This document shows, one piece after another, positions 24,086 to 33,337 of a stretch of 64,000 nt of DNA. The notes under the pieces are model-generated. The model searched no databases. It was not told the origin of the DNA and saw only the letters and a list, made by a program, of their open reading frames with translations. Every line of letters begins with the position of its first letter. Within the stretch, counting starts at the first letter, position 1. The translations under genes were made by a program, and so were the position numbers. Source of the DNA: Herbiconiux sp. L3-i23 (GTDB lineage: Bacteria; Actinomycetota; Actinomycetes; Actinomycetales; Microbacteriaceae); contig NZ_AP025737.1 of assembly GCF_023734115.1 (NCBI RefSeq), positions 1,984,001-2,048,000 of the forward strand. The letters run 5' to 3'.

Positions 24086-24508
24086 ATGGCGGAGAAGAGG
24101 GTCGGGCTCAGCGCAGAGGAGCGCGCGGCCATGAAGGCGTACGCGAAGGAGCAGAAGGCGGCGGCCGAAGGTGCCGCCGCGTTGCAGGCCTGCCTCGACG
24201 CGATCGCGAAGATGTCGGACGAGGACCGCCCGATCGTGCAGCGCCTGCACAAGCTCATCCTGGAGGCCTCTCCCGAGCTGCAGGCGACCACCTGGTACGG
24301 GATGCCCGCGTATGCGAAGGCGGGCACCACCATCTGCTTCGTCAAGAACGCGGGCAAGTTCAAGGACCGGTACGCGACCCTCGGCTTCCAGAGCGCCGCG
24401 AACCTCGACGACGGCGGCATGTGGGCCAAGGAGTTCGCGGTGCTCGCGTTGGGACCCGACGAAGAGCGCCGGGTCGTCGAGCTCGTGACGAAGGCGGTGT
24501 CCAGCTAG
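24086..24508 (+). CDS. DUF1801 (YdhG-like) family protein
   Basis: A 140-residue soluble protein. The N-terminal 35 residues are basic and alanine-rich. The core has PELQATTWYGMPAYAKAG and FKDRYATLGF, as in YdhG/DUF1801 proteins that resemble frataxin-like or iron-chaperone folds; a biochemical role is not established. The ATG has GGAAGGACATC upstream. Its TAG stop is half of a CTAG shared with the convergent cydDC stop. Confidence 0.8.
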   Translation: MAEKRVGLSAEERAAMKAYAKEQKAAAEGAAALQACLDAIAKMSDEDRPIVQRLHKLILEASPELQATTWYGMPAYAKAGTTICFVKNAGKFKDRYATLGFQSAANLDDGGMWAKEFAVLALGPDEERRVVELVTKAVSS

Positions 24509-27500
24509 CGGCTGGCGGGCACGCTCTCGCTCGCCGTGGAGAGGTCGAGGAGCCGGTCACCGAGTCGGAAGTCGTCCGGGCGGTGACTGACGAGCACGAC
24601 CGCACGATCGGCGAGGGCCTCCCGGAGATCGCCCATGAGCTGCGCCGCGGTCGGCGCGTCGAGGTGCGCAGTGGGCTCGTCGAGCAGGACGACGTCGGCA
24701 CGGCTGAGCAACGCTCGAGCGACGGCCAGACGCTGCCGCTCGCCGCCCGAGAGGTTGGCACCGGCGTCGCCGACCAGGGTGTCGAGCCCGTCCGACATCC
24801 CCTCGACGAGCGGCCCGAGTCCGACCCGCGACAGCACTTCGTGCAGCTCGGCCTCGTCGGGCCTGTCATCGGACGGGCGGGCGAGCAGCAGATTGCCACG
24901 GATCGTCGACGAGAACAGGTGCGCCTCCTGCGGGCACCATGCCAGGCGTTCGCGCACCGATGCGTCGGCGAAGGAGAGGGCGTCGCGGTCGTCGAGCGAG
25001 TACCGCCCCGCCGCGGGGTCGAGGTAGCGCAACAGGACCGAGAGCAGCGTCGTCTTGCCGCTGCCCGACGGGCCGGAGACCGCGAGCCACTCGCCGCGAG
25101 CCGCCGTCGCGGTGACACCCGCGAACGCCGGAGCGTCGGCGCCCGGCCAGCGTGCCGAGAGCTCGTCGAGCGTCACCGTGCCGACCGAGGGCGCGGCGGG
25201 AAGTGCGCCGTCGTCGCGACGATCGACCGGCTCGAGCACGGGTCCCAGTCGGCGGAGGCCGCCGGCGAGGGCGGGCCACTGCTGGACCGCTTCGACGGCG
25301 GCGAGCATCGGGTCGATGAGTCCGAGCGGAAGCAGGGCGAGCACCCCGACCACCTCGACGGGCAGAGTGCCGGCGACCACGGCGGGAGCCGCGAGCGCGA
25401 TCATCGCGACGGCGGCGCCGCCGAGGGCCGCGACGGTGAGCGCGTTCCCGAGCCCGAGCGCCCACGAGCTGCGACGGGCCTCCCGCCCGGCCTCCGCGTC
25501 GAGGGCGGCGAGCCCCTCACGGACCCGGTCCGCGACTGCGTTCGCGGACAGATCGTCGGCGGCGGTCAGCGTCGAGGCGAGCCGCCGGGCGGCGCGCGCC
25601 CGGAGCGCGCGTTCGTCGGCGCTGGCACGCCGGTCGGCGGCGAGGGCGATCGCGGGTGCGATGAGGAGGCAGACGGCGACGACGGCGGCCATCGGCGCGA
25701 GCACCGCCGGATGCAGGAGAGCGACCGCGATGAGGGAGGCGACGCCGGTCGCGAGAGCGACGAACGGCGGGAGCAGCACGCGAGGGGCGAGATCGCGCAC
25801 CTGATCGGCGGTGACCACCAGCAGATCGAGGGCGGTGCCGCCGCGGCGCAGCGCGGGCGAGGCGGTTCCGCGCGCGGCGATCGCCGACCACAGTCGGTCG
25901 CGCAGGGTCGTCACCGACCCGAACACGGCGTCGTGGGTGACCAGTCGCTCGCTGTAGCGCAGCACCGATCGGGCGATGCCGAAGAAGCGCACGCCGACGA
26001 TGGCGACGAGCAGGTACATGATCGCGGGCTGCTCCGCGGCGCGCACGATCAGCCAGCCGGAGACCGCGGTGAGCGCGGCGGCGCTCATCGCCGCGAGTGC
26101 GCCGAGCGCGACGGCCGCGGCGAGCCGACCGGCGACAGGACGGAACAGGGCGGCGAGCAGCCGCAGCACCGCGGCCGTCCCCAGCGGCGAATCGGTCGCC
26201 GCCGCCGGGGCAGGTGCCGCGAATCCGGCCGAAACGGCCTCGTCCGTCGGTGCGGAGGCAACGACGTCGGCCCCGGACCCGTGGATATCGGACCCATCGA
26301 CCGTGATGACGCGGTCGGCGAGCGCCACGACGCGGGGATCGTGCGAGACGAGGACGACGGTGACGGCGCCGAGCTCGGCGATGAGCCGCTCCACGATGCG
26401 CGCCGTGCGCGAGTCGAGGTGGGCGGTCGGTTCGTCGAGCAGCAGCACCGTCGCGCCGTCCTCGACGCGCAGCAGGGCACGCGCGAAGGCGACACGGCGC
26501 AGCTCGCCGGGGCTCAGCTCTGCGGGCTCGCGCCGGAGCAGAGCGGCGAGGCCCAGCGCGTCGACGAGTTCGTCGCGGCGGGCCGCTCCCCCGTCTCCCG
26601 TGTAGAGGCGCAGTTCCTCCTCGACCGTCTCGCCGACGGTCGACGGATGCTGCGGGAGCCAGGCGACGCTCCCCGTGGTCACGACGGTGCCGTCGACGGA
26701 GACGCCGTCGCCGGTGTCGAGGCGTCCGGCGAGCACGCGCAGCACCGTCGACTTGCCGGCTCCGCTGCGACCGACGAGCGCCACCCGTTCCCCGTGCGAC
26801 ACATCGAAGGAGAGCCGGTCGACGGCGGCGTCCTCGCGCCCCGCGTACACGACGTGCAGCCGGTCCACCTCGATCGCGCCGGCGATCGACCTCGCGCGGT
26901 CGAGCACGCGGCGGGGGCGGGCCCGGTCGAGCGCGGCTCGCACCCGGTCGAGGGCGGCGACGCCGTCCTGCGAGGCGTGGAACGCGACGCCCACCTCACG
27001 CAGCGGGGTGTAGCACTCGGGTGCGAGGATCAGCACGAGGAGACCGGTTCCGAGGTCCATGTCGCCGTTCACGAGACGGATGCCGACCGTCACGGCGACG
27101 ACCGCGACCGAGATGGTGGCGATCAGTTCGAGGGCGAGCGACGACAGGAACGCCGTCCGCAGCGTCGCGAGCGTGCGCACCCGGTACTGCTCCGAGATCC
27201 GGTGCAGGGCGGCCGACTGCTCGTCGACGCGGCCGAGCCCGACGAGCACCGGCAGTCCGCGGGCCAGTTCGACGAGGTGGTCGGCGAGCCGGCTCAGCGC
27301 ACCGGCGGCGGCATCGACACGGTCACGCGTGTACTGCCCGATGAGGATCATGAATACCGGGATCAGCGGAACGGTGAGCACGACGATCAGCGCGCTCAGC
27401 CAGTCGGCGGAAAGGATGCGCGCGCCGACGGCGAGCGGGATGACCGCGGCGCCGATCGCCGTCGGCAGCACCGTGCGGTAATAGGGGTCGAGATCGTCGA

Positions 27501-27843
27501 GCCCACGGGTCGCGAGCGTCGTCGCCTCGCCCACGCGGAGGTCGGAGCCCTCGAGCATCCGTTCCGTGAGTTGCGCACGGAGCGTCTCCTTCGCGCCGAG
27601 CGACGCCCTCGTCGCATACCACTGGGTGAGCCACGCCGCGGCCGCGCGGGCGACGACCGCGGCGAAGCCCAACAGCAAGGCGTCGCGCCACGAGTCCGAC
27701 CCGTCGAACAGCGAGGAGATGCCCCGAGCCAGCGCTTCGGCGATGCCGAGCAGGCCGGCCGCCTTGACGGCGGCGAGCAGCCCGAGGACGTACAGCGTGC
27801 GCGCGCCTCCGGGACCGAACCCCGCTGCGAAGGGTGATCTCAC
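24505..27843 (-). CDS. cydDC: fused CydD-CydC thiol-reductant ABC exporter
   Basis: A 1112-residue protein joining two complete half-transporters. The first (CydD-like, residues about 1-530) has six membrane segments, Walker A GRSGAGKST (about 359), a degenerate signature LSPGELRR and Walker B VLLLDEPTAHLD. The second (CydC-like, about 560-1112) has its own membrane domain, Walker A GPSGSGKTT, signature LSGGERQRLAVARAL and Walker B VVLLDEPTAHLD. CydDC exports glutathione/cysteine or haem-related thiols needed to assemble cytochrome bd. GTG 27843 overlaps the cydB stop (GTGA), so synthesis is coupled. Separate genes are more usual. Confidence 0.93.
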   Translation of the reverse strand: MRSPFAAGFGPGGARTLYVLGLLAAVKAAGLLGIAEALARGISSLFDGSDSWRDALLLGFAAVVARAAAAWLTQWYATRASLGAKETLRAQLTERMLEGSDLRVGEATTLATRGLDDLDPYYRTVLPTAIGAAVIPLAVGARILSADWLSALIVVLTVPLIPVFMILIGQYTRDRVDAAAGALSRLADHLVELARGLPVLVGLGRVDEQSAALHRISEQYRVRTLATLRTAFLSSLALELIATISVAVVAVTVGIRLVNGDMDLGTGLLVLILAPECYTPLREVGVAFHASQDGVAALDRVRAALDRARPRRVLDRARSIAGAIEVDRLHVVYAGREDAAVDRLSFDVSHGERVALVGRSGAGKSTVLRVLAGRLDTGDGVSVDGTVVTTGSVAWLPQHPSTVGETVEEELRLYTGDGGAARRDELVDALGLAALLRREPAELSPGELRRVAFARALLRVEDGATVLLLDEPTAHLDSRTARIVERLIAELGAVTVVLVSHDPRVVALADRVITVDGSDIHGSGADVVASAPTDEAVSAGFAAPAPAAATDSPLGTAAVLRLLAALFRPVAGRLAAAVALGALAAMSAAALTAVSGWLIVRAAEQPAIMYLLVAIVGVRFFGIARSVLRYSERLVTHDAVFGSVTTLRDRLWSAIAARGTASPALRRGGTALDLLVVTADQVRDLAPRVLLPPFVALATGVASLIAVALLHPAVLAPMAAVVAVCLLIAPAIALAADRRASADERALRARAARRLASTLTAADDLSANAVADRVREGLAALDAEAGREARRSSWALGLGNALTVAALGGAAVAMIALAAPAVVAGTLPVEVVGVLALLPLGLIDPMLAAVEAVQQWPALAGGLRRLGPVLEPVDRRDDGALPAAPSVGTVTLDELSARWPGADAPAFAGVTATAARGEWLAVSGPSGSGKTTLLSVLLRYLDPAAGRYSLDDRDALSFADASVRERLAWCPQEAHLFSSTIRGNLLLARPSDDRPDEAELHEVLSRVGLGPLVEGMSDGLDTLVGDAGANLSGGERQRLAVARALLSRADVVLLDEPTAHLDAPTAAQLMGDLREALADRAVVLVSHRPDDFRLGDRLLDLSTASESVPASR

Positions 27844-28913
27844 CGCCCCGACACTCCTGCAGCATCCTCGCTTTTTCCGCCGCCGGCGCGGAGTACCGCG
27901 GGGATGATCTCGTGGGCTGACGGGATGTGGTCCTCGGAGAGGCGCTTGCTGAAGACCCGGATGCTCCACGCCTGGTACGCGAGCACCAGGGGAAGCCCGA
28001 TCGCCGTGACGACGGTCATCACGGTGAGCGTGTAGTCGCCGCTCGACGCGTTCGAGATCGTGAGGTTCCACGCCGGATCGAGCGTCGACGGCAGCACCAC
28101 CGGGTACACCGCCGAGAACAGGGCGCCGGCGCCGGCGCCGAGGAAGACCGACATCGCCGCGAAGGAGCGGCCTTCACGGCCCGCGCGCGCGAACAGCCAC
28201 GACAGCAGGACGGCGACGACCGCGACCACCACCAGCATCCAGGAGAGGAGATCGCCGTAAAGGAATTGGACGACGAGCACCCACGCGACGATGGGCAGCA
28301 GGGCGATCGGGGCCCGGTGGGTCACGAAACGGCGCATGCGGTGGCGCACGTCGCCGTCGGTCTTGAGCGCGAGATACGCGGCGCCCTGCACGAGCGCGAA
28401 CCCGACGACGGCGAGACCGCCGAGCACCGCCGGCCAGCTCAGCCACGCGAAGGCACCGCCTTCACGGTCCCCGTTCTCATTCAGCGGCAGCCCGAGTGTG
28501 CTCACCGCGAGCGCGGCACCCACCCCGAAGGCCGCGACCAGCGAGCCGAAGCCGAGGGCGCGGTCCCACCAGCGACGCCAGCGGTCGGTGCTGCCCTTGC
28601 CCCGGTATTCGATGGCGACCGCGCGGAAGATGAGCCCGAGCAGCACGAACACGAGCGGCAGGTACAGCGCCGAGAACAGCGAGGCGTACCAGAGCGGGAA
28701 CGCGGCGAAAGTCGCGGCACCGGCGGTGATGAGCCACACCTGATTGCCGTCCCAGACCGGGCCGATCGTGTTGAGCATCAGACGACGCTCACGGTCGGAC
28801 TTCGAACTGAACAGCAGGTGCATCCCGACGCCGAGGTCGAAGCCTTCGAGGATGAGGTAGCCGACCCAGAGCAGGGCGATGGCGACGAACCAGATGGTGG
28901 GCAGGACGTCCAC
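27840..28913 (-). CDS. cydB: cytochrome bd oxidase subunit II
   Basis: A 357-residue membrane protein with about nine segments. The N-terminus MDVLPTIWFVAIALLWVGYLILEGFDLGVGM contains the EGFDLG signature (about residues 23-28), followed by WDGNQVWLITAG and a C-terminal VLAYQAWSIRVF. It partners CydA in the quinol oxidase that reduces O2 without proton pumping. It lies 30 bp downstream of cydA and overlaps cydDC, giving a cydABDC operon. Confidence 0.96.
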   Translation of the reverse strand: MDVLPTIWFVAIALLWVGYLILEGFDLGVGMHLLFSSKSDRERRLMLNTIGPVWDGNQVWLITAGAATFAAFPLWYASLFSALYLPLVFVLLGLIFRAVAIEYRGKGSTDRWRRWWDRALGFGSLVAAFGVGAALAVSTLGLPLNENGDREGGAFAWLSWPAVLGGLAVVGFALVQGAAYLALKTDGDVRHRMRRFVTHRAPIALLPIVAWVLVVQFLYGDLLSWMLVVVAVVAVLLSWLFARAGREGRSFAAMSVFLGAGAGALFSAVYPVVLPSTLDPAWNLTISNASSGDYTLTVMTVVTAIGLPLVLAYQAWSIRVFSKRLSEDHIPSAHEIIPAVLRAGGGKSEDAAGVSGR

Positions 28914-28943: not shown

Positions 28944-30530
28944 TCAGTACGCGAAGGCGAGCACGTCGTCCTTGCGGCCGCCATGGTCGACCCCGCCGCC
29001 GTCGGACTCGTCGTCGTCGTTCTCGTGCGCGAGCTCCGGCATCGCCGAAACGACGCCTCCTCGGACGTACTTCACGATGAGCTTCACCTCGACGACCATC
29101 AGGGCGCCGTAGACGAGGGTGAGCGCGATCAGGGAGAAGAGCATCTCGCCCCACGAGACTCCGGGCGACACCGCGGCGGCGGTGAACATGAACACCCCGT
29201 CGACCCCGGTCGGGTTGGGTGCGACGACGAACGGCTGCCGGCCCATCTCGGTGAAGACCCATCCGGCCGAATTCGCGACGAACGGGGCGAAGATGCCGAG
29301 GATCGCGAGGCGCATGAGCCACTTCGAGCTCGGCACCGTGCCCTTGCGGGTCAGCCACAGCGCGACGGCGGAGGCGAACGCGGCGAGGCCGCCGAACCCG
29401 ATCATGATGCGGAAGCCCCAGTAGGTGACCTCCATCAGCGGCACGTAGTTGATCTCGGCGCTGGCGCGGTCTCCGTACATGGGGTCGTCCGGCAGATTCG
29501 TGCCGTAGGCCTCCTGGTACTGGGGCACCAGGTCGACGACGCCGGGGAGCTCGGTGTCGAAGTCGCTGTGCGCCAGGAAGGACAGCATTCCGGGCACGGA
29601 GATGAGCGTCTCGACCTGGTCGCAGTCGTTGGTGCCGAGCGCGCCGACCGAGAGCACCGAGAAGTCGGTGCCGGTGTGACAGGCGGCCTCGGCGGCGGCC
29701 ATCTTCATCGGCTGCTGCTCGTACATGAGCTTGCCCTGCAGGTCGCCGGTGACGGCGACGCCCGCGAACGCGACGATGCCGACGACCGCGCCGACGCGGA
29801 GGGCCTTGATCCAGACGCCGTGGTCGGCCTTGTCGCGTCCCGGGATGGCGGCGTTCTCGCCGACGACGACGTAGCCCTTGGCGTCGACCGTGTCGATCCC
29901 GTCCTTGCGCCGGCGCCATAGCTGGTACCAGGAGATGCCGACGAGGAACATGGCGCCGACCGCGATCGAGCCGGTGAGGACGTGCGGGTAGGCGACGAGC
30001 GCGGTGTTGTTGAACAGCACCGCCCAGATGTCGGTCATCACCGGCCTGCCGTCGACGAGCTCGACCCCGACGGGATGCTGCATCCACGAGTTCGCGACGA
30101 TGATGAAGTACGCGGAGAAGATCGAGCCGATCACCGCGAGATACAGGGCGGCGAGGTGCACCTTCTTGTTCAGGCGGTCCCAGCCGAAGATCCAGACGCC
30201 GAGGAAGGTGGACTCGAAGAAGAAGGCGAGCAGTCCCTCCATCGCGAGCGGGGCGCCGAAGACGTCGCCGACGAAGCGGGAGTACTCGCTCCACGCCATG
30301 CCGAACTGGAACTCCTGCACGAGGCCGGTCGCGACGCCCATGATGAAGTTGATCAGGTAGAGCTTGCCCCAGAACTTGGTGAGCTTCAGCCACTTGGTGT
30401 CGCCCGAGCGCACCCACCTGGTCTGGAAGTAGGCGACGAGGGGGCCGAGGCCCAGCGTGAGCGGAACCATCCAGAAGTGGTAGACGGTCGTGATGCCGAA
30501 CTGCCAACGTGCGATTTCGACGGGATCCAC
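28944..30530 (-). CDS. cydA: cytochrome bd oxidase subunit I
   Basis: A 528-residue subunit carrying haems b558, b595 and d. Near the N-terminus RWQFGITTVYHFWMVPLTLGL includes the haem-ligand histidine, EFQFGMAWSEYSRFVGDVFG lies near residue 100, and the quinol-loop hallmark GRQPF is present near 422. GTG 30530 is chosen because the family begins just before RWQFG and AGAGGG lies upstream; an open frame to 30626 runs through the operator. A palindrome 35 bp upstream fits the BlaI-type repressor encoded divergently. Confidence 0.96.
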   Translation of the reverse strand: MDPVEIARWQFGITTVYHFWMVPLTLGLGPLVAYFQTRWVRSGDTKWLKLTKFWGKLYLINFIMGVATGLVQEFQFGMAWSEYSRFVGDVFGAPLAMEGLLAFFFESTFLGVWIFGWDRLNKKVHLAALYLAVIGSIFSAYFIIVANSWMQHPVGVELVDGRPVMTDIWAVLFNNTALVAYPHVLTGSIAVGAMFLVGISWYQLWRRRKDGIDTVDAKGYVVVGENAAIPGRDKADHGVWIKALRVGAVVGIVAFAGVAVTGDLQGKLMYEQQPMKMAAAEAACHTGTDFSVLSVGALGTNDCDQVETLISVPGMLSFLAHSDFDTELPGVVDLVPQYQEAYGTNLPDDPMYGDRASAEINYVPLMEVTYWGFRIMIGFGGLAAFASAVALWLTRKGTVPSSKWLMRLAILGIFAPFVANSAGWVFTEMGRQPFVVAPNPTGVDGVFMFTAAAVSPGVSWGEMLFSLIALTLVYGALMVVEVKLIVKYVRGGVVSAMPELAHENDDDESDGGGVDHGGRKDDVLAFAY

Positions 30531-30564
30531 CTGAAGTGCCCTCTTGTTCTCTCGATGTCGAGAT

Positions 30565-30585
30565 ATTTCTACACGCTGTAGAAAT
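30565..30585. promoter_or_regulatory. putative BlaI operator in the cydA leader
   Basis: Perfect 9-bp arms ATTTCTACA and TGTAGAAAT are separated by CGC. It sits just downstream of the predicted cydA start point, where a bound repressor would block transcription. Core form TTCTAC-N5-GTAGAA. Confidence 0.75.
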
Positions 30586-30598
30586 TGCTCGTGAGATG

Positions 30599-30626
30599 AG
30601 TATGACACTGGTTCGGCCCGCGTCAA
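30599..30626 (-). promoter_or_regulatory. candidate cydA promoter
   Basis: On the minus strand TTGACG (30621-30626) and CATACT (30599-30604) are separated by 16 bp. Transcription would begin near 30592, giving a leader of about 60 nt that contains the operator. Confidence 0.5.
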
Positions 30627-30688
30627 CAGCGGCGACGGCGGCGACGAGCAACTTCGCTTCGACGCCGTGGGCGAACGGCGACGCGCCG

Positions 30689-30705
30689 TTCTACGTGACG
30701 TAGAA
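30689..30705. promoter_or_regulatory. putative BlaI autoregulatory operator
   Basis: Perfect 8-bp arms TTCTACGT and ACGTAGAA flank one G. It overlaps the candidate -35 of the blaI promoter and keeps the same TTCTAC-N5-GTAGAA core as the cydA site. Confidence 0.75.
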
Positions 30706-30729
30706 AGGCGTCGCTCGTCGGGTTACTAT
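30701..30729 (+). promoter_or_regulatory. candidate blaI promoter
   Basis: TAGAAA (30701-30706) and TACTAT (30724-30729) are separated by 17 bp. The -35 lies within the operator palindrome. Confidence 0.5.
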
Positions 30730-30763: not shown

Positions 30764-31123
30764 GTGCCAACTCTCGGTGATCTCGAGCGCTCGGTGATGG
30801 ACGCGCTCTGGAACTCGGAGTCGCCGCTGTCGGCCTACGACATCCAGGCCGCGCTCGCCGACACCTCCGCGAAGCCGCACGCGGCGACCACCGTGCTGAC
30901 GGTGCTGTCCCGACTGGAGAAGAAGGGCTTCGTGCGCCGCGAGCGCACTGAACGCCCGCACCGGTACGCGGCGGTCGCGTCGCGTGAGGACCACATGGCC
31001 GAGCTGATGCACGAAGTGCTCGGCGGCGCTGACGACCGCACCGCGGTGCTCGCCCGCTTCGTCGGGCAGGTCTCCCCCGCCGAGGCCGAGGCCCTCCGCC
31101 GCCTCCTCGACACCCCCTCCTGA
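30764..31123 (+). CDS. blaI: BlaI/MecI/CopY family transcriptional repressor
   Basis: A 119-residue winged-helix repressor. The N-terminus LGDLERSVMDALWNSESPLSAYDI and the recognition region HAATTVLTVLSRLEKKGFVRRE (about 46-67) are the BlaI pattern, followed by a short dimerisation domain. The BlaI family dimerises on CTACA/TGTAG-type dyads; two such dyads occupy the intergenic region to cydA. GTG 30764 is preceded by GAAGGGACGAAC. It probably represses itself and cydABDC. Its usual BlaR1-type protease partner is encoded about 1.3 kb downstream. Confidence 0.92.
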   Translation: MPTLGDLERSVMDALWNSESPLSAYDIQAALADTSAKPHAATTVLTVLSRLEKKGFVRRERTERPHRYAAVASREDHMAELMHEVLGGADDRTAVLARFVGQVSPAEAEALRRLLDTPS

Positions 31124-31130
31124 CCTCGGT

Positions 31131-31460
31131 TGTCGAGTAGCGGAGCGCACCGAGTCCCCCGCGCCGAACTTCGCCCTCTGCTCGCTGAGGGGGCCCGCCA
31201 GGGCCGTCGCGATGCGAGGAACTCCGCATCCGCCCGAACTTCGAGCACACCAACCAACTCGTGTCGCATCGCGACGGCCGTGAACGGCCTCCTCAGCGAC
31301 CAGCCGCCCCTCGTATCGCTTCGCTCAACGGGCGGGCCACTTTCACCGGTAGTCGAGTAGCGACGAAGGAGCGTACCGAGACGGGTCGAGTAAGCGAAGC
31401 GCATCAAGACCGCAGCCCACGCTCTCGATACTGCGCTGGCGCACCTACTCGATGACCGGA
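31131..31460. repeat. composite intergenic repeat, second copy (inverted)
   Basis: It begins 8 bp after the blaI stop. It contains TTGTCGAGTAGCGGAGCGCACCGAG pieces, the 118-bp hairpin at 31182-31299, a CGTATCGCTTCGCTCAACGGGC segment (in part), and a 66-bp module at 31346-31411. All are in reverse orientation relative to the copy near 20.7-21.2 kb. No gene is present in this 386-bp gap. Confidence 0.85.
31182..31299 (-). repeat. 118-bp hairpin element, copy 2
   Basis: Same length as 20928-21045 and inverted relative to it, with about ten mismatches counted by eye. The terminal TCGCTGAG and CTCAGCGA arms are intact. Confidence 0.85.
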
Positions 31461-31509: not shown

Positions 31510-32286
31510 ATGACGCTGGAGACGAGGGATGAGTGGGCGATCAGCGAGGTCGCGCGGCTTACCGGGACGACCAGCAGGACGCTGCGCCACTACCAGGCGG
31601 AGGGGCTGCTCGAACCGAGCCGGGTCGGCGCGAACGGCTATCGCTATTACGACGCCCACGCACTCGTCCGACTCCAACGCATCCTGCTGCTGCGCAGCCT
31701 CGGACTCGGGATCGACGCCATCCGCGACGCACTCGCCGGCGAACCGGACACCGCGGCGGCATTGCGCACCCATCTCGGGTGGTTGCGGCAGGAGCAGGAC
31801 CGGCTGGCGCGGCGCATCGCGGCGGTCGAACACACCATAGGAATCGAGGAAGGAGGTGGACGAGTCGTGGCAGAGAAGATGTTCGACGGCTTCGACCACA
31901 CGCGGTATAAGGACGAGGTCGAGCAGCGGTGGGGCGCCGACGCCTATGCGACGAGCGACGCGTGGTGGCGCGGCATGAGCGACAACGACCGCGCCGACTG
32001 GAGGGCGACCTCGGAAGCGCTCGCCCGCGCGTGGATGGAGGCGGCGGAGAGCGGCACGTCGCCCGACAGCGATGAGGCGCAGCAGCTCGCCGAGCGCCAG
32101 GTCGAGTGGCTGAGCGCGATCCCGGGCACTCCGCGTGCTGCCGACGGGTCTCTCGACGAGGACTACCTGCGGGGTCTCGGCGACATGTACGCGGCGGACG
32201 ACCGCTTCGCCGCGAACTACGGCGGCACGGAGGGCGCACGGTTCGTCCGCGACACCCTGAACGCCTGGATCGAACGACACCCCTGA
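31510..32286 (+). CDS. MerR family regulator with TipAS antibiotic-recognition domain
   Basis: A 258-residue TipAL-like activator. The N-terminal MerR HTH reads WAISEVARLTGTTSRTLRHY (about 11-30) with the wing NGYRYYD, then a coiled-coil dimerisation helix to about residue 118. The C-terminal TipAS domain (about 120-258) contains YKDEVEQRWG and ends FVRDTLNAWIERHP. TipAL proteins bind thiopeptides or other drugs and switch on their own promoter. AAGGAGGTGG at 31850-31859 before an in-frame GTG at 31867 suggests a separately translated drug-binding form of 140 residues. Confidence 0.9.
   Translation: MTLETRDEWAISEVARLTGTTSRTLRHYQAEGLLEPSRVGANGYRYYDAHALVRLQRILLLRSLGLGIDAIRDALAGEPDTAAALRTHLGWLRQEQDRLARRIAAVEHTIGIEEGGGRVVAEKMFDGFDHTRYKDEVEQRWGADAYATSDAWWRGMSDNDRADWRATSEALARAWMEAAESGTSPDSDEAQQLAERQVEWLSAIPGTPRAADGSLDEDYLRGLGDMYAADDRFAANYGGTEGARFVRDTLNAWIERHP
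31850..31869 (+). promoter_or_regulatory. internal ribosome site and start for a TipAS-like short form
   Basis: AAGGAGGTGG (31850-31859) is nearly ideal complementarity to 16S rRNA inside a coding region. It is followed by GTG 31867, which is in frame; the spacing from GGAGG to GTG is 10 nt. Confidence 0.55.
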
Positions 32287-32392: not shown

Positions 32393-33337
32393 ATGCCGAT
32401 CGCCCCCGTCGCCCTCGCGCTGCTCGCGCTGGCGCTCGCGTGGCCAATCCCGCTGTGGCTGTCGGCCGCGCGCTGGCCGGCCCGTGCGCCGGCGCTCGCG
32501 CTGCTGCTCTGGCAGTCGATCGCCCTCGCCGGTGGACTGTCGATGATCGGCGCCCTGCTGACCTACGGGCTGCTCCCGTTCGGCACCGATCTGGTGCACG
32601 GCCTGCTCGAGTTCGCCGGGGCGGTGCAGGACGGCACGGCGGCGCAGCGCGGCGGCCTGCTGCACCTCGCCGCCCTGGTCGGAGCGGCTCTCCTCGGTGC
32701 GCACCTGGTGCTGAACCTCGCCCTCACGATCGGACGCACGGTGCGCGACCGTCGGCGCCACCGCCGACTGCTCGAGCTGCTCGGCACCCCCGACCCGGAG
32801 CTGCCCGCGACCCGGATCCTCGACTCCCCCCTGCCCGTCGCCTACTGCCTGCCCGGCGGGTCGGGCTCGGTCACGGTGTTCTCGGCGGGGCTCGTCGCAC
32901 TGCTGTCGCGCGACGAGCTGTTGGCCGTCACCGAGCACGAGCGGGCGCACCTCACCCAGCGACATGATCTGGTCCTGGTGGCGTTCCGCGCCTGGCACGC
33001 GTCGCTGCCCTGGTTCCCGGTCGCGTATCGCGCTCAGAGCGAGGTGGAGTTGCTCATCGAGATGCTCGCCGACGATCGGGCGCGCGCCCACGTCGAGGAC
33101 ACGTCGCTGGCCCGGGCGATCGCGTTGGTGGGTGACGCCGGCGGCCAGGGGCCCCTCGCGGCGGCCGACGACCCCGAACGACTGCGTCCGACGTCCGTCG
33201 CCCGGATCACCCGACTCGCCGCAGTGGGACCGCTTCCGGCGACCCTCCGAGCTCTCGTCGTCGCGACGGCCGTCGCCCTGCTCGTCGTGCCAACGGCCCT
33301 GCTCCTGCTGCCCGCCGCGGTGTCGCTCGTCGCCTAG
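32393..33337 (+). CDS. M56 family (BlaR1-type) membrane metallopeptidase
   Basis: A 314-residue membrane protein with hydrophobic segments near residues 5-30, 37-60 and 83-105, a cytoplasmic protease domain with the zinc motif HERAH at about 182-186, and a C-terminal membrane helix. This is the BlaR1/M56 layout without an extracellular penicillin sensor. Such proteases cleave BlaI-type repressors to relieve repression. The likely substrate is the BlaI encoded 1.3 kb upstream. Its stop shares CTAG (33334-33337) with the convergent GntR gene. Confidence 0.86.
   Translation: MPIAPVALALLALALAWPIPLWLSAARWPARAPALALLLWQSIALAGGLSMIGALLTYGLLPFGTDLVHGLLEFAGAVQDGTAAQRGGLLHLAALVGAALLGAHLVLNLALTIGRTVRDRRRHRRLLELLGTPDPELPATRILDSPLPVAYCLPGGSGSVTVFSAGLVALLSRDELLAVTEHERAHLTQRHDLVLVAFRAWHASLPWFPVAYRAQSEVELLIEMLADDRARAHVEDTSLARAIALVGDAGGQGPLAAADDPERLRPTSVARITRLAAVGPLPATLRALVVATAVALLVVPTALLLLPAAVSLVA

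Follow-up and report, generated by a model that had tools for sequence, protein, structure and literature searches.

Does the BlaI-type repressor encoded next to a cytochrome bd operon control that operon? The question is raised by a locus of Herbiconiux sp. L3-i23, which lies within the 64,000-nucleotide stretch of DNA analysed here (the window) and in which blaI is divergent from cydA, with two palindromes in the gap between them. The initial annotation had proposed that these palindromes are BlaI operators. We consider it very probable, judging from the sequence comparisons described below, that the dyads are the operators of the adjacent BlaI, that BlaI represses cydABDC and its own gene through them, that a BlaR1-like protease acts as the switch, and that other energy genes are also under this control.

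The cydA-blaI locus and its two dyads

The features of the locus are collected in Table 1. Profile matches place cydA, cydB and cydDC on the minus strand and blaI on the plus strand, in agreement with the gene context described in the initial annotation; CydD and CydC are encoded by a single ORF in which TIGR02857 and TIGR02868 each score above the cut-off.

Table 1. Coordinates of genes and predicted regulatory elements, numbered from the first letter of the window.
Feature	Position	Strand	Basis
cydA, cytochrome bd subunit I (proposed target)	28944..30530	-	PF01654
cydB, cytochrome bd subunit II (proposed target)	27840..28913	-	PF02322, TIGR00203
fused cydDC ABC exporter (proposed target operon)	24505..27837	-	TIGR02857 + TIGR02868, one ORF
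operator 1 (predicted), core TTCTAC-N5-GTAGAA, cydA leader	30565..30585	.	sequence, conservation in relatives' gaps
candidate cydA promoter TTGACG-N16-CATACT	30599..30626	-	sigma-70-like consensus match only
operator 2 (predicted), same core, right half at presumed blaI -35	30689..30705	.	sequence, 18-bp offset peak
candidate blaI -10, TACTAT, offset by 18 bp from the GTAGAA half of operator 2	30724..30729	+	offset statistics
blaI, 119 aa BlaI/MecI-type repressor, divergent from cydA	30764..31123	+	PF03965
MerR/TipAS-domain regulator gene, between blaI and protease gene	31510-32286		
membrane metalloprotease resembling BlaR1, with HExxH (314 aa when read from this start)	32393..33337	+	

The gap between the starts of cydA (30530) and blaI (30764) contains both dyads, ATTTCTACACGCTGTAGAAAT at 30565-30585 and TTCTACGTGACGTAGAA at 30689-30705, each an inverted repeat around a short centre. 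The cores (30567-30583 and 30689-30705) have identical arms and start 122 bp apart. Both of the perfect TTCTAC-N5-GTAGAA palindromes that had been described are thus present at their positions, and a scan of the 3.18 Mb genome yields no further perfect copy. When up to two mismatches are allowed, the window contains 4 matches vs 0.15 expected (100 shuffles, largest count 2).

The location of the dyads relative to the putative promoters is suggestive. Only one sigma-70-like promoter facing cydA was found in the gap (30626-30599; shuffle mean 0.2), and since operator 1 lies directly downstream of it, operator 1 falls in the cydA leader, as had been claimed. On the other side of the gap the GTAGAA half of operator 2 (30700-30705) precedes TACTAT by 18 bp and therefore occupies the presumed -35 of blaI. 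This second assignment was also part of the initial annotation, and it gains weight from the relatives, where the same offset peaks in 74 named gaps (see below).

A separate inverted repeat, TCTCGATGTCGAGA (30550-30563), adjoins operator 1 in the cydA leader; it is identical in one locus of the same genus (L014), is partly retained in two others (L015 and L108), and is possibly the site of a second regulator. A terminator-like match on the opposite strand overlaps this repeat. Downstream of blaI, the region 31127-31362 contains two copies of a repeat, CGGTTGTCGAGTAGCG, as well as a 40-nt inverted repeat (31178-31303). The MerR/TipAS gene that separates blaI from the protease gene is found in the window genome and in G002 (locus L014), i.e. 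in 2 of the 4 genomes of the genus that have a close BlaI, and was not detected in the other relative loci fetched in the BlaI search of 60 relatives.

The BlaI protein scores 86 bits with the Penicillinase_R profile PF03965 (curated cut-off 22.6) and its best solved relative is PDB 2g9w (phmmer E 4.7e-19). The structural model (pLDDT 80.1) has the winged-helix and dimer-domain fold of BlaI/MecI, with 2g9w (E 1.1e-8, 44% identity), 1sd4 and 1okr as best matches. The more specialized profiles of Bacillus BlaI (NF012168, 25.3 vs 180) and CopY/TcrY (TIGR02698, 31.5 vs 121.95) both stay below their cut-offs. A core of the CTAC/GTAG type is the operator type of BlaI, and a dyad of this type at the presumed own promoter, a BlaI/MecI trait, is present here and conserved.

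Conservation of the dyads and their dependence on BlaI

Among 60 relatives (own genome included), 28 have a BlaI match at E 1e-3 or better. All 18 of the best loci (L013-L030, E 2.5e-22 or better) have a divergent cydA and a protease gene downstream of blaI, and no cydA match was found at any of the 12 weaker BlaI loci fetched (L031-L042). In the 18 best loci the identity of the neighbouring CydA goes down to 39%, i.e. the regulator appears to be kept while the oxidase type changes. A scan of named-species genomes gave at least 572 confirmed places, of which the best 80 were taken; a divergent cydA is present at 77 of these 80, and a protease match at every one. The three exceptions, all from Arthrobacter (L167, L176, L185), have no neighbouring cydA, but blaI and the protease gene are retained, as is a single dyad before blaI. 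Note that the best 80 loci include close congeners and overlap with the set of 60 relatives (L187 is G001), so that they are not independent, and as the genomes compared are related, the p-values given in this work overstate independence. A class-wide draw comprised 118 genomes; 45 of them gave a match at 1e-20, and 30 loci were retained out of 55 matches. In 13 of these 30, blaI stands divergent to a cydA-like match, which is remote in four cases (27-30% identity), so that the linkage reaches beyond the order.

The initial annotation had named beforehand a point on which its claim should be judged, namely whether relatives with the cydA-blaI arrangement also have the dyads; on this point the claim holds. 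The 77 divergent-cydA gaps among the best 80 of the at least 572 named loci total 14,834 bp, with 151 perfect N5 dyads, whereas the remaining 547,527 bp of the same loci contain none; the reversed pattern occurs neither in the gaps nor in the flanks, and TACTAC-N5-GTAGTA is absent from the 77 gaps. At least one perfect N5 dyad is present in 74 of the 77 gaps and at least two in 53, and an N5 or N6 dyad is present in 76. The gaps lacking a perfect N5 dyad are L171 and L174, with three N6 sites apiece, and L121, with two sites that have one altered letter.

The geometry of the sites is also informative. Consecutive sites are mostly 24-25 bp apart (34 of 77 spacings), and on the blaI side TAnnnT peaks 18 bp past GTAGAA (36 cases, as opposed to 6 at 17 bp and 4 at 19 bp; 151 sites in 74 named gaps). 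Across the named gaps the arm letters are constant and the spacer letters variable, with spacer lengths of 5 (151 sites), 6 (17) and 8 (1). We also considered a coordinated change of the spacer as proof of coevolution, and dropped it as three loci (L109, L110, L113) mix N5 and N6 in one gap. That the dyads are hairpins in a leader RNA rather than protein-binding DNA seems to us highly improbable. They are indeed inverted repeats, one of them is located in a leader, and a terminator-like match overlaps the neighbouring repeat at 30550-30563; however, the constancy of the arms around a spacer that varies in letters and in length (5, 6, once 8), the tandem sites about 24-25 bp apart, the presence of a site also at a -35, and the dependence on the BlaI gene described next speak against an RNA element.

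Of the 15 genomes whose BlaI match is close (E 1e-30 or better), 14 have the exact dyad, vs 2 of the 45 others (Fisher 1e-10). The two exceptions among the latter, G013 and G021, have one site each, and among the 45 are three genomes (G014, G043 and G050) whose BlaI is distant and whose dyads are of the TAC type. In the 60 relatives cydA is found in 46 genomes, in 18 of them beside BlaI, and the exact dyad is absent from all 28 cydA genomes without a neighbouring BlaI. By these distributions the dyad tracks BlaI and not cydA. In the own genus, the five genomes without a close BlaI (G003-G007; G005 is 68% complete) lack both a cydA match and the dyad.

Moreover, the letters of the dyad vary together with the recognition helix of BlaI. 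The helix reads TTxLTVLxRLE in 79 of the best 80 of the at least 572 named loci (RLV in the remaining one), while three distant loci of the relatives (L028-L030) have TAC-type arms and the helix TTVMTVLDRLA. In the class-wide draw 17 of the 30 loci have a site of the type TAC[TG]AC-N5-GT[AC]GTA within 170 bp, and their helices are TT[VI]MTVL[DQ]RLA in 16 cases and TTVMTVMDRLA in one. Exact TTCTAC dyads go with the helix TTVLTVLERLE at two class-wide loci (L325, L328). Neither kind of site was seen at the remaining 11; among these, the L/E helix is accompanied by a single-mismatch TTCTAC site at three loci (L321, L323, L330), and no such site is present at three M/A-helix loci (L324, L326, L327). 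The sole close-BlaI genome without an exact dyad, G042 (locus L023), has an odd helix, TTVHTVLTRLE. We regard this covariation of helix and operator as the strongest indirect evidence that BlaI itself would read the dyads. As a side observation, L325 and L328 belong to another family of the class, and their TTCTAC dyads and L/E-type BlaI stand beside a remote cydA-like gene (27-28% identity).

One may ask whether the dyads bind another regulator of respiration, such as a redox or oxygen sensor, with BlaI as a mere neighbour. Cytochrome bd operons elsewhere are under different regulators, and the three Arthrobacter loci that keep a dyad before blaI in the absence of cydA would fit autoregulation by any factor. 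Nevertheless, we find this improbable: the dyad follows BlaI rather than cydA, its letters shift with the BlaI recognition helix, and its core is of the CTAC/GTAG type that belongs to BlaI.

A predicted respiratory regulon

If BlaI reads these dyads, are cydABDC and blaI its only targets? In the window genome, 12 places match with at most one mismatch (2 of them perfect) vs 9 for the reversed-pattern control. This is the level of chance, and we rejected the scan as a stand-alone proof of further targets; it was used only to choose genes, which were then tested in relatives. Of its single-mismatch sites, one precedes pta, one precedes atpB and one is located between hemA and hemE.

Perfect sites away from cyd-blaI were found in five of the 15 BlaI-positive genomes (G001, G009, G015, G041, G059), at 20 site-loci. 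Neighbouring genes were named where Pfam supports the identity in the locus or in its G041 partner, which was the case for 10 of the 20: flavohemoglobin-type globin (3), HemQ with ferrochelatase (2), YceI with redoxin and CcdA-type genes (2), COX2/ctaC (1), UbiA-type ctaB (1) and phosphotransacetylase (1). The remaining 10 include an MFS gene by molybdenum-cofactor-like genes (named by reading), PdxS, pyridoxamine-oxidase-like genes (2) and genes without an assignment. Two loci (L101:2496 and L106:2506) have in common a perfect dyad before a pyridoxamine-oxidase-like gene, with no clear respiratory link. Five site-loci are common to G041 and G059 and retain intact arms at 54-64% identity over 257 bp. 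The reading of the paired dyads between cydA and blaI as operators is supported by their conservation, but in relatives the sites extend beyond cyd.

The candidate targets were tested in 15 BlaI-positive vs 15 BlaI-negative genomes, a site being counted when it matched at least 10/12 letters and lay no more than 450 bp upstream. Such a site precedes atpB in 5/15 vs 0/15, pta in 4/14 vs 0/15 (G042 has no pta match), hemE in 4/14 vs 0/15 (the hemE region of G030 is short) and ctaB in 4/14 vs 0/14 genomes (G030 without a match, G031 short). The p-values of these single targets are 0.02-0.05 each, and the four pooled give 17/57 vs 0/59 (Fisher 1.4e-6, kinship ignored). Five of the 17 pooled sites are discovery matches, and 12/52 are left without them; 59 permuted hexamers gave at most 2 sites in BlaI-positive and at most 5 in BlaI-negative genomes. 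For ctaC the numbers are 6/15 (one a discovery match) vs 0/14 (one short), and for the control parE/gyrB 1/13 (two short) vs 0/15. The window genome has no good site before ctaB or ctaC. A general role of hemQ was rejected, as its 2/15 (vs 0/15) are the discovery genomes G041 and G059, and no claim is made for it beyond that genus.

It could be argued that BlaI controls only cydABDC and itself, and that the sites at atpB, pta, hemE, ctaB and ctaC are due to chance or belong to a foreign factor. The sites of the window genome at such genes are single-mismatch ones in a number at chance level, every extra target has its site in a minority of the BlaI-positive genomes (4 to 6 of 14-15), so that for any one target most of them show no good site, and in eight of the 15 (all except the five extra-site genomes, G002 and the window genome) perfect sites are confined to cyd-blaI. 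This restricted view deserves more weight than the other alternatives, even if we think it unlikely on balance. It does not easily explain the pooled excess over BlaI-negative genomes and over permuted motifs, which persists without the discovery matches, nor the five G041/G059 site-loci whose arms are intact in otherwise diverged DNA. We therefore predict, from these comparisons, a respiratory regulon of BlaI.

The presumed partner protease, a possible mechanism and known systems

The protease of the window has 314 residues and the motif HERAH; HExxH is kept in 64/64 orthologs, which had been filtered to 270-400 aa beforehand, so that their lengths are partly so by construction. Cys152, in a PVAYCLPG stretch before the active site, is invariant in 33/33 aligned sequences. 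The peptidase M56 profile PF05569 stays below its cut-off (19.2 bits vs 31), the M48 profile is above (33.4 vs 20.3), and a match to M56 at E 1e-3 is seen in 23 of the 33 orthologs that were aligned. A search of solved sequences with the protease profile gave weak M48-type matches only (best HtpX, E 0.0043), and Foldseek gave no match to the model at 1e-3. The model (pLDDT 92.4) can be superposed on BlaR1 in its membrane and protease portion (Z 10.6, rmsd 6.1, 214 residues). ZMPSTE24 is a near-equal match (Z 10.1), and Z values of this kind can reflect a common helical arrangement. No penicillin-sensing domain is present in the 314 residues, and the model finishes in a C-terminal helix past the protease part. 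The BlaR1-like protease is presumed to be the switch of BlaI.

Taken together, we infer the following mechanism. A BlaI dimer would sit on each dyad; at operator 1 it would block transcription of cydABDC just past the promoter, and at operator 2 it would cover its own -35 and so repress blaI. A respiratory, redox, heme or copper signal would turn on the BlaR1-like protease, BlaI would be inactivated and cytochrome bd would rise, with the other targets being adjusted along with it after the removal of BlaI. In BlaI-positive relatives, and probably here too, the same BlaI would act on other respiratory and energy genes, the candidates in this genome being pta, atpB and hemA-hemE. Cytochrome bd is copper-free and aa3 contains copper; together with the analogy to the PetR/PetP switch this makes copper attractive as the signal, although redox or heme would fit equally.

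More tentatively, we speculate that the original job of actinobacterial BlaI and its sensorless protease may have been to match respiration to a signal from the membrane, redox, heme or copper, that the control of beta-lactam resistance came later, and that the cysteine of the AYC motif may be the sensor. If so, the bd and aa3 oxidases, heme supply, ATP synthase and acetate overflow would be under one pair of proteins. Should the main reading of the locus be right, the label 'penicillinase repressor' would be misleading for these genes, and soil bacteria of this kind, which are easily handled, would be convenient for finding what sensorless BlaR-like proteases detect. The operator code and the target list are testable predictions for a family that is usually taken as an antibiotic-resistance switch.

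It is instructive to compare this system with known ones. The cyd-blaI locus of Micrococcales did not appear among the literature titles listed, which covered open-access papers only and make this absence weak. The initial annotation saw a link between BlaI and cytochrome bd; our comparison supports the link, but it is not new in kind, since PMC5473688 reports, citing Sala 2009, that M. tuberculosis BlaI binds the cytochrome bd and ATP synthase promoters, and that M. tuberculosis BlaR lacks the sensor domain. Two further sources describe how M. tuberculosis BlaI binds and represses at Rv1303, a part of the ATP synthase operon (PMC12565901), and a need for blaR of M. tuberculosis in heme use, found in a transposon screen (PMC7058343). 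The present pair is similar to M. tuberculosis BlaI (Rv1846c) and the BlaR-like Rv1845c: 2g9w is the closest solved relative and both proteases are sensorless. There are also differences. Firstly, the operator letters here are TTCTAC, and the helix reads LTVLSRLE here as opposed to MAVLQRLA in Rv1846c. Secondly, blaI is here divergent from cydA with paired predicted operators. Thirdly, the candidate targets pta, hemA-hemE, ctaB and ctaC were not met in the portions of the Rv1846c reports consulted. As regards the ATP synthase operon, the window genome has a single-mismatch site before atpB, and a site of at least 10/12 precedes this gene in 5/15 BlaI-positive vs 0/15 BlaI-negative genomes.

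Staphylococcal BlaI/MecI have the same repressor fold as the model of our protein (1sd4, 1okr, 2d45), and the modelled protease matches BlaR1 over the membrane and protease portion, but unlike in staphylococci the penicillin-sensor domain is absent and the divergent operon is respiratory. The cyanobacterial PetR/PetP copper switch, which targets plastocyanin and cytochrome c6 so that a copper protein is swapped for a heme protein, likewise has a BlaI-like factor and a BlaR1-like protease beside electron-transfer genes (PMC7896320); its targets differ from the cytochrome bd and other genes predicted here. That BlaI-type pairs can control electron transport is already known in kind, and what the present comparison would add to it is a wider predicted regulon and a putative operator code.
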